Below, piece after piece: positions 12,027 to 22,873 of a stretch of 38,540 nucleotides of DNA (position 1 is its first letter; each line of letters begins with the position of its first letter). The notes beneath the pieces are model-generated. The model worked only from the letters and a program-made list of their open reading frames with translations. It made no database searches and was not told the DNA's origin. Source of the stretch: Candidatus Acutalibacter pullistercoris (lineage in GTDB: Bacteria > Bacillota > Clostridia > Oscillospirales > Acutalibacteraceae); contig DXDU01000118.1 in NCBI GenBank assembly GCA_019115285.1, positions 1 through 38,540 on the forward strand, given 5' to 3'. Position numbers and translations under genes: made by a program.

Positions 12027-12037
12027 ACCCACAGAGA

Positions 12038-12160
12038 CCCCCGCGACTGACGGGCTAATGTGGAACTCACCACAGGGGAGCGGGGGACCGGGGAGATCCC
12101 CCGGGGAAAATGCCGACCGTCTGGGCAGTGTCGCTGGCGCGATGCTGCTCTTTTTGTTTT
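12038..12160 (+). promoter_or_regulatory. ZTP (pfl-motif) riboswitch
   Basis: Leader sensing ZTP/ZMP, the purine-synthesis intermediate that builds up when 10-formyl-tetrahydrofolate is short. Visible parts: stem P1 CCCCCGC with GCGGGGG; the conserved CGACUGACGG; hairpin GUGG/CCAC; the GGGGAGC segment; and the 3' core GCCGACCGUCUGGGCA. GACGG pairs with CCGUC as the pseudoknot. The terminator that follows reuses the GGGCAG of the core, so ligand binding should prevent termination (ON switch). This agrees with the riboswitch class first found upstream of pfl genes. The rest of the 322-base gap upstream of pflB holds the promoter, this element and the ribosome site. Confidence 0.93.
12123..12160 (+). 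terminator. Attenuator of the ZTP riboswitch
   Basis: GGGCAGUGUCGC, loop UGGC, GCGAUGCUGCUC form a 12-bp stem followed by UUUUUGUUUU. The 5' arm begins in the conserved CUGGGCAG of the aptamer, making aptamer and terminator mutually exclusive. Confidence 0.88.
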
Positions 12161-21043: not shown

Positions 21044-21592
21044 TCACAGGCCCAGGTCCTCGTGGCGCTCCCGCAGGCCCTGGATGCACTCCTCCATCAC
21101 CTGGTCCAGTTCCATCCCCAGGCGCTGGCAGCCGTCTAAAATGACCTCCCGGTTCACCCCGCCGGCGAAGCGCTTGTCTTTGAACTTCTTCTTCAGGCTC
21201 TTCACTTCCAGGTCCATCACCGACTTGGAGGGCCGCATGAGCACCGCCGCGTGGATCAGCCCGCTGAGCTCGTCAATGGTGTAGAGCACTTTTTCCATGT
21301 AGAGTTCCGGCTCCACCTGGCACACCAGGCCGTAGCCGTGGCTCACCACCGCGTGGATGAAGGCCTCGTCGTACCCTGCCTCCTTCAGGATGTCCACCGC
21401 TTTCTCGCAGTGCTCCTCCGGGTACTTCTCGTAGTCCACGTCGTGCAAGAGCCCTACGCTGCCCCAGTAGTCCGGGTCCTCCCCGGCCTTTGTGGCGAAG
21501 TGCTCCAAAATAGCCCCCACTTCCCGCCCGTGCTGCACCAGGGCCTCGCTCTCGTTATACTGCCGCAGCAAGGCCAATGCCTGTTCTTTCAT
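21044..21592 (-). CDS. HD-domain phosphohydrolase-like protein
   Basis: 182-residue HD-superfamily protein. Candidate metal ligands: His21 in VQHGREV, His50-Asp51 in LLHDVDYEKYPEEH, and His85 in VVSHGYG. Single-domain HD proteins of this type are widespread in Firmicutes and usually uncharacterised. The frame is open for 76 codons upstream, but the ATG at 21592 is chosen because of GAGGCGG just before it, and because the upstream part would run across a promoter and the palindromic element. Operon with the phosphodiesterase. Confidence 0.85.
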   Translation of the reverse strand: MKEQALALLRQYNESEALVQHGREVGAILEHFATKAGEDPDYWGSVGLLHDVDYEKYPEEHCEKAVDILKEAGYDEAFIHAVVSHGYGLVCQVEPELYMEKVLYTIDELSGLIHAAVLMRPSKSVMDLEVKSLKKKFKDKRFAGGVNREVILDGCQRLGMELDQVMEECIQGLRERHEDLGL

Positions 21593-21625
21593 ACATCGCC
21601 GCCTCTTTCTCAAAAGATTTCCTCC

Positions 21626-21653
21626 ATTATACCACGGCTGCAACCCAGCGCAA
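21626..21653 (-). promoter_or_regulatory. Promoter of the HD-phosphodiesterase operon
   Basis: On the minus strand TTGCGC (21648-21653), a 16-base spacer ending in TGG, and perfect TATAAT (21626-21631), 34 bases before the ATG. Confidence 0.65.
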
Positions 21654-21697
21654 GGCCCTGGCGGAAAATCTTGCGGGCTTGCCCCCACCTGGGCGGG

Positions 21698-21785
21698 AGG
21701 CCGCCGGTCCTGCACGCGCCCCGCCGGGGCGCTGGACCCGTCCCGGGTCCCGGTGCCCTGCGGGCACCCGCAGGACCGGCGGCCT
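21698..21785. repeat. Cloverleaf-forming palindromic element
   Basis: A perfect 16-bp inverted repeat (21698-21713 with 21770-21785) encloses three successive hairpins. Each has a 7-bp perfect stem and a 3-base loop: GCGCCCC-GCC-GGGGCGC (21716-21732), GGACCCG-TCC-CGGGTCC (21734-21750) and GGTGCCC-TGC-GGGCACC (21752-21768). They are joined by only 1-2 bases. No U-tract follows on either strand. It lies between the GH130 terminator and the HD promoter. The triloops rule out a tRNA. Function unknown. Confidence 0.85.
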
Positions 21786-21830
21786 GGCTCCCCCCTGCCG
21801 GAACGAGAGACAAACCCCACCCGGGCACAA

Positions 21831-21857
21831 GAAAAGAGCGCACCCCCAGGCGCGCTC
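21831..21857 (-). terminator. Terminator of the GH130 gene
   Basis: On the minus strand GAGCGC and GCGCTC close a hairpin that is followed by TTTTCTTG, 14 bases after the stop codon. Confidence 0.75.
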
Positions 21858-21871
21858 CCTTTTTGTTTTGT

Positions 21872-22873
21872 TTACTTGTTCTCCTGGTCGCCCAGCTCCA
21901 TGGGGTACTGCCGCATGTAAGAGAGCAGCTCGTCCACGGTGGTAAAGGCCAGGCCGGTGACGGTGTCCGCCGCGCCGTAGTAGATGGTGATCCGCCCGGT
22001 CTCCGGGTCGGTGAGGGTGGCGCAGGGGAATGTGACGTTGGGCACATCCCCGGTGAGCTCGTACTGCTCCTCGGGCCCGAAGACGTAGAAGTTGCCTCTG
22101 GCCTTGACGATCCAGGGACGGTCGATGTCCAGCAGGGCCACGCCGAAGCGGTACACGAAGCCGTTGCAGGAGTTGAGCACGCCGTGATAGATCATCAGCC
22201 AGCCCTCGTCCGTCTCAATGGGGGTGGGGCCAGGGCCCACTTTCTTGGACTGCCAGCCGCCGGCGGTGCCGAAGACGAAGCGGTGCTTGCCCCAATAGGT
22301 CATGTCGGGGCTCTCGCTGTAGAAGATGTCGCCGAAGGGGGTGTGGCCGGTGTCGCTGGGACGGGACACCATGGCGAACTTGCCACCTATCTTCCGGGGG
22401 AAGAGCACGCCGTTTCTGTTGTAGGGCAGGAAGGCGTTCTCCAGCTGGTAGAAGGTCTTGAAGTCGTAGGTGTAGCCAATGCCGATGGTGGGGCCGTGGT
22501 AGCCGTTGCACCAGGTGATGTAGTACCGATCCTCGATGAAGCACACCCGGGGATCGTACCGGTACTCTTTCCGGGTCACGTCCTTGTCGCCCTCAAAGAC
22601 GATGGGCTCGTGGTTGATGTCCCAGTGGATGCCGTCCTTGGAGAACCCGGCGAAGATGTCCATCTCCACGCCCCGGTTGTCGCAGCGGAACACACCAGCG
22701 TAGCCGTCCTCATACACCACCACAGCGGAGTTGAACACGCTGTTGGAGGTGGGGATGGCGTCCCGGGGGATGATGGGGTTCTCGGTGTAGCGCCACACGG
22801 GCTTGGTGTACCCGGCGGGCTTGTCCTGCCAGGGCATGTTGGGCAGGGCGGGCCTGCCAATGATCTTTGCCAT
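21872..22873 (-). CDS. GH130 glycoside phosphorylase (mannoside type)
   Basis: Family GH130 protein, 333 residues; members phosphorolyse beta-mannosides such as mannosyl-glucose, mannobiose or mannooligosaccharides, giving mannose-1-phosphate. Five-bladed propeller pattern: [19 protein letters not shown], then [11 protein letters not shown], then [17 protein letters not shown]. The family catalytic acid corresponds to Asp107 in [19 protein letters not shown] and VTFPCATL blades follow. No signal peptide, so it acts on imported oligosaccharides. GGAG lies about ten bases before the ATG at 22873. Single gene with its own -10 and terminator. Linkage specificity (1,4 or 1,2) is not resolvable by eye. 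Confidence 0.88.

Follow-up and report, generated by a model that had tools for sequence, protein, structure and literature searches.

What is an 88-bp stretch of intergenic DNA whose letters describe a perfect outer stem closing three perfect hairpins, and is it one of a kind? The question is raised by a locus in Candidatus Acutalibacter pullistercoris (contig DXDU01000118.1, positions 1 to 38,540 of the forward strand; this whole stretch of 38,540 nucleotides is called the window), where an earlier note made from the sequence alone had described a 16-bp stem around three 7-bp triloop hairpins with junctions of one or two bases. Inspection of the sequence reproduces this description exactly in both letters and geometry: the element occupies positions 21698-21785, every pair of its outer stem is Watson-Crick, and the junctions measure 2, 1, 1, and 1 nt (Table 1).

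Table 1. Positions of the cloverleaf and of the neighboring features in the window
Feature	Position	Strand	Evidence
HD-domain protein gene	21044-21592	-	PF01966, E 9e-06
Outer stem, 5' arm (16 bp)	21698-21713		Sequence and DNA fold
Hairpin 1, 7 bp, loop GCC	21716-21732		Sequence and DNA fold
Hairpin 2 (central), 7 bp, loop TCC	21734-21750		Sequence and DNA fold
Hairpin 3, 7 bp, loop TGC	21752-21768		Sequence and DNA fold
Outer stem, 3' arm (16 bp)	21770-21785		Sequence and DNA fold
Terminator-like GC hairpin after GH130 gene	21836-21857	-	By eye; not reported by consensus scan
GH130 family gene (beta-1,4-mannooligosaccharide phosphorylase)	21872-22873	-	PF04041, E 1.3e-66

On the plus strand the fold of lowest energy is the cloverleaf, with DNA parameters (-51.3 kcal/mol, z -7.7) and RNA parameters (-87.8 kcal/mol, z -6.6) alike, and in neither case did any of 200 shuffles fold as well. 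With RNA parameters, however, the centroid is not the cloverleaf but a rod, and the minus strand likewise gives a rod and no cloverleaf. On a shape descriptor the element scores 32, against a top score of 18 in 400 dinucleotide-preserving shuffles of the whole window. The window cloverleaf is far beyond chance, as had been supposed. That it is neither a tRNA nor a terminator is borne out as well: ARAGORN finds no tRNA in the window, no T-tract lies beside the element on either strand, and a consensus scan reports no intrinsic terminator there. Gene calls and Pfam agree with its description as intergenic, placing it in the gap that separates two minus-strand genes, one for a GH130 protein and one for an HD-domain protein. 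The further claim that it lies between a terminator and a promoter is less well supported: a terminator-like GC hairpin followed by TTTTCTTGT is seen by eye on the minus strand, but the consensus scan of 21560-21900 reports neither signal.

Copies of the window element were sought in its own genome (G000), in its closest relative, a member of the same genus (G025), in congeners including G004 and G026, and more widely. In G000, weak short matches only were returned, together with the reverse self-match of the element, and the twelve stretches around these weak matches hold no cloverleaf by a perfect-stem descriptor. Ninety-eight relatives gave two short matches, neither of which lies in any cloverleaf; a collection scan with the left arm gave three unrelated records, none with a cloverleaf; and the intergenic region of the window found no match in a phage collection.

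The same intergenic locus does exist in G025, where the ortholog of the HD protein (94% identity) adjoins a GH130 gene at 96% identity, and it holds a diverged counterpart of the element at L027:2366-2448 (equivalent to L095:3510-3592). The outer stem of this counterpart, 11 bp long, ends in CCTGC/GCAGG as in the window element, and its three hairpins carry mismatches or bulges. It fails the shape descriptor, its plus strand as DNA folds only moderately better than shuffles (4 of 200 fold equally well), and as RNA it forms no cloverleaf on either strand, the minus strand folding as a rod. The evidence for the counterpart is weaker than that for the window copy. A covariance model built from the two elements, run on 60 genomes with stricter filters and E values up to 1, matched those two places only. 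Downstream of the GH130 gene in 18 further congeners (the survey, which took in G000 and G025, covered 20 loci out of 24 matching genomes) no cloverleaf was found, and there the next gene is mostly one other than the HD gene, hence the gap is not the same one. Other repeats were noticed as well: a hairpin-rich repeat composed of CTCCCCC..GGGGGAG, a second hairpin, and TGAGGGGG occurs in the same intergenic regions of G025, at L027:2150-2290 and at L222 upstream of xth, and in G022 tandem repeats built on GGCCCGTGRCCGGGCAGGACRAGCC (L043:1180-1330) adjoin the HD-gene match.

The architecture, as distinct from the sequence, recurs. A first, shape-only descriptor, applied to 1.18 Mb made up of stretches from four genomes and the three short records of the left-arm scan, gave 34 hits, 24 of which score at least 30; eight of the 34 have two arms, and all eight score 25 or less. 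Local dinucleotide shuffles (20 x 1.16 Mb) gave 38 hits, two of them with three hairpins and none scoring 30 or more. When only perfect stems were allowed, in the stretches of G000, G025, G004, and G026, three arms were found in 14 of 14 elements, and two, four, or five arms in none. A second, defect-tolerant descriptor found 27 cloverleaves in stretches of 20 genomes, 26 three-armed and one four-armed (L102 19790-19890 in G025, which was retained); 14 of them are in G004 (200 kb), seven in G025 (346 kb), and six in G000 (414 kb), while the other 17 genomes (882 kb, including one masked stretch of 549 bases) gave none. An extra 182 kb of G000 yielded two more elements, and 48 kb of G002, G012, and G006 yielded none. 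The element-bearing genomes have a G+C content of 0.63-0.64 and the unmasked others 0.41-0.62, so that G+C and distribution are confounded.

The class is defined here by an outer stem of 7 bp or longer that encloses three hairpins, with junctions of no more than 3 nt, in intergenic DNA; its elements are 77-108 bp long, and the window element, with its score of 32, falls within it. One AT-rich candidate (L200 4723-4843), which has four hairpins and six G-T pairs, was left out before counting. The eight two-arm hits include a relative that is itself repeated in G025, a 9-10 bp outer stem closing two 6-bp hairpins at L095:18-72 and 249-301. Compared at E 1e-6, most G000 and G025 elements share nothing, the exceptions being the L053 pair and the C5/C19 family described below, and outer stems differ from family to family. 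The window element is, with little room for doubt, one copy of a recurring cloverleaf class. Other copies had been named as a test of the earlier note, and the outcome is mixed: the architecture recurs, but no copy with the window element's own sequence was found. The pattern suggests that the identity of the class lies in shape, not sequence, its copies keeping three arms while their letters change.

Individual loci were then compared between congeners, the xth-, cmk-, and wecB-like gene names being read by eye from translations. Upstream of an xth-like gene on G000 contig C5 lies an element with 92.5% identity to one that precedes a cmk-like gene on G025 contig C19; the similarity ends at the element borders, and the flanks do not match. 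The positional counterpart of the C19 copy is another G000 element, on C82, whose flanks are 84-87% identical and the element only 80%. The wecB-like locus carries a cloverleaf in both G000 and G025 (about 70% identical in a gapped alignment) and is a short gap with no cloverleaf found in G026 and G004. At the xth locus the cloverleaf is present in G000, the best G025 candidate is weak (score 18 with relaxed settings), and none was found in G026 and G004. These comparisons show that the presence of a cloverleaf at a given locus differs between congeners, and that in two species the copies of at least one family occupy unlinked sites. Dispersal of the elements is likely.

A family of high copy number was found in G004, where the pattern CCGTCTCGC-N-GCGAGACGG occurs 39 times (38 distinct copies); the same pattern is absent from 28 other genomes of the genus, viral contigs match the bare outer-stem pattern at 24 places without a cloverleaf at any of them, and one G004 element, compared with a plasmid collection, found no match. 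All 39 copies fold to three arms, with a near-constant central hairpin and two variable ones. In a MAFFT alignment of the copies, 10 of 30 pairs are changed on both sides; the nine outer pairs are invariant by construction, the copies having been retrieved by the exact outer-stem pattern. Cells changed on both sides number 70, against 21.3 in shuffles (0 of 500 reach this value) and 9 at most in registers slid by one to three columns; of five measures of covariation the weakest, which counts further pair types, was reached by 24 of 500 shuffles. These counts show that the side arms of the G004 family vary by paired compensatory changes. The covariation that had been proposed as a check is thereby found for the class, in this family, and not for the sequence of the window element.

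Many of the G004 copies lie in long non-coding mosaics, and some are paired in the same direction at a spacing of 0.6-1.1 kb, the interval holding a conserved AT-rich module. At L164:1480-2175, L187:1430-2495, and other loci, such pairs flank a palindromic AT-rich module with a core like ATTTGTTCAAATATGAACAAAT (up to 4 mismatches). The fetched G004 loci hold 19 of these modules, each with a cloverleaf in the same locus, an association biased by the choice of most loci for their cloverleaf; the stretches of G000, G025, and G026 hold none. Cloverleaf pair and module may together constitute a composite non-coding mobile or regulatory unit.

Gene context was scored with home-made gene calls for 63 elements, leaving out those that score below 25, have only one or two hairpins, or contain three or more G-T pairs; L221 and the G025 element at L093 18142, which is the same place as L218, are absent from this set. 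All 16 G000 and G025 elements lie outside genes, one of them at the edge of its stretch, and the gaps that hold them are tandem, convergent, and divergent. In G004, 10 of 47 elements overlap a home-made gene call, overlaps that we presume to be wrong-strand calls. The class is thus shown to sit mostly or wholly in intergenic DNA. The G000 and G025 elements have a G-rich flank on one side of the outer stem, with a mean of 7.75 G in 14 nt where control intergenic places have 5.18; an orientation-specific G-rich flank was dropped as a defining feature, since G004 copies carry the tract on the opposite side. The sequence GGCGGGCTG adjoins two G025 copies that are not linked to each other (L096 9624 and L220).

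On balance, we read the cloverleaf as a non-autonomous, structure-defined intergenic DNA repeat, dispersed in trans or by template switching. Once the strand folds, three hairpins set nearly without linkers inside an outer stem would become a four-way junction. This structure would act as DNA, on a strand exposed in replication or under supercoiling, and would be recognized by shape instead of sequence; copying to new intergenic sites would be non-autonomous, via a trans factor or replication template switching, and template switching within the arms may help keep the stems perfect. An active trans-acting mover, as against passive copying, is proposed tentatively, at rather less than even weight. 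Among the suggestions made from the sequence alone, that of a cruciform-forming or palindromic mobile DNA element is the one to which the recurrence, the covariation in the G004 family, and the position differences between species point.

If, instead, the element were transcribed in untranslated regions, it could be a structured RNA, serving as an mRNA stabilizer, an RNase barrier, or a regulatory RNA. The RNA fold of the window element is very stable, many copies have a gene start or stop no more than about 110 bp away, and all 39 G004 copies are three-armed with DNA or RNA parameters, as RNA on both strands, so that folding alone cannot separate DNA from RNA. Among the 20 G000 and G025 elements, DNA parameters give three arms on both strands in 19, the remaining one being four-armed; RNA parameters give three arms in 16, and the failures include the window element, on one strand, and its G025 counterpart, on both strands. 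The pairs themselves argue against RNA, with 1401 Watson-Crick pairs and only 5 G-T pairs in the 39 G004 copies. In the column counts for the orientation used, 14 A-C mismatch cells exceed 7 G-T cells, and since the A-C cells are G-T on the other strand, they leave room for a weak RNA bias there. The pairing shows little tolerance of G-U, and none that is strong on either strand. Copies are found in gaps where two genes converge and not only ahead of gene starts, which also speaks against an RNA role. Rfam gave no match at the element: in the window it reports only a ZMP/ZTP riboswitch aptamer (12033-12133, plus strand, above the gathering score, E 1.2e-07), a permissive scan of 21600-21900 gave one hit far below the gathering score, and 12 element-bearing loci gave no match. 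The evidence favors DNA: the element probably acts at the DNA rather than the RNA level, and a structured RNA is improbable.

We likewise doubt that the shape is a functionless mutational by-product, built and perfected by template switching in GC-rich intergenic DNA with nothing to move it. In the accessible text of PMC8794818, PMC8604942, and PMC7202029, template switching is reported to homogenize the arms of inverted repeats and to create and maintain hairpins, and the arms described here are near-perfect and covarying; such a process, however, predicts neither three arms as a rule nor the same element at unlinked loci. Spacer inversion, a named outcome of template switching (PMC8604942, accessible text), is not seen in the central hairpin, where the loop reads TCC in 33 of the 39 oriented G004 copies and the inverse, GGA, in none.

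Two kinds of known mover fit less well still. It is highly improbable that the elements are classical MITEs, which carry the terminal inverted repeats of a DDE insertion sequence and are flanked by target duplications: the copies are dispersed and their outer stem is equivalent to such repeats, but outer stems differ between families, and in 31 elements the best flanking direct repeat averages 1.74 nt against 1.71 nt when permuted, which is no excess (46% of permutations are as high). A single element has a 7-nt flanking direct repeat, in a G-rich flank. REP/BIME-like repeats moved by a Y1 (RAYT) transposase share with the cloverleaf its palindromes, intergenic position, many copies, and, in G004, mosaic surroundings, but are scarcely credible given the four-way rather than single-hairpin architecture, families that share no sequence, and the outcome of the search for a REP- or IS200-type transposase that the earlier note had proposed: the Y1 family (PF01797) has no match in G000, G004, and G025 (87, 97, and 85% complete), yet 21 of the 60 genomes searched have one, and so do other congeners, G026 and G012 for example, in which the stretches scanned are without elements. 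In the three element-bearing genomes, as in 14 of 14 control genomes, the integron integrase model (TIGR02249) gave matches below its cut-off and none above it. Loss of SbcD as an explanation for tolerated palindromes was considered and rejected, the SbcD gene being found in all three.

The reading of the cloverleaf as a structure-defined DNA repeat has a bolder form, which we consider rather unlikely: a mobile DNA element identified by shape alone, its four-way junction being recognized and copied while the sequence drifts freely and the three arms stay fixed. Dispersed palindromic repeats are common; a constant architecture combined with lineage-specific sequence would make it possible to ask whether DNA shape by itself is read, be it by a cell or by a mobile enzyme, and whether selection or template switching maintains the perfect stems. 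Since its copies are unlike each other, the class is missed by sequence-based repeat and RNA-family searches, and it may therefore be more widespread than known.

Several described systems resemble the class in part. Integron attC sites, each a single imperfect hairpin with core sites and the IntI integrase, resemble it as recombination sites recognized as a single-strand fold; unlike them, the cloverleaf occurs in three genomes with no integrase over the family cut-off. REP sequences are single hairpins with a conserved GTAG-type foot, and in the REP/RAYT system they are recognized as a folded single strand. REP/BIME repeats with RAYT are, like the cloverleaf, short intergenic palindromic DNA repeats of high copy number in mosaic arrangement (PMC2817692, accessible text), but the cloverleaf class has three hairpins closed by an outer stem, families without common sequence, and host genomes without a detected Y1 gene. 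The palindromic repeats of green-algal organelles, in Volvox and its relatives, are likewise abundant and apparently selfish, but they are organellar, and a fixed four-way architecture is not mentioned in the accessible text (PMC2670323). Dispersed palindromic repeats are thus already known, while dispersed bacterial cloverleaf repeats, or a three-arm four-way cloverleaf class, are described in none of the open-licence papers found, as far as their text is accessible; this accords with the earlier note, which knew of no element with this exact architecture. The word "cloverleaf" is absent from the main texts of PMC2229807, PMC2267715, and PMC10969869. Bacterial MITEs and other small mobile sequences (NEMIS/Correia, RPE, RU) are also non-coding, dispersed, inverted-repeat structures; theirs, in the accessible text of PMC2229807, are stem-loops with terminal repeats, whereas the cloverleaf class has no excess of target duplication and is built around an inner three-arm junction.
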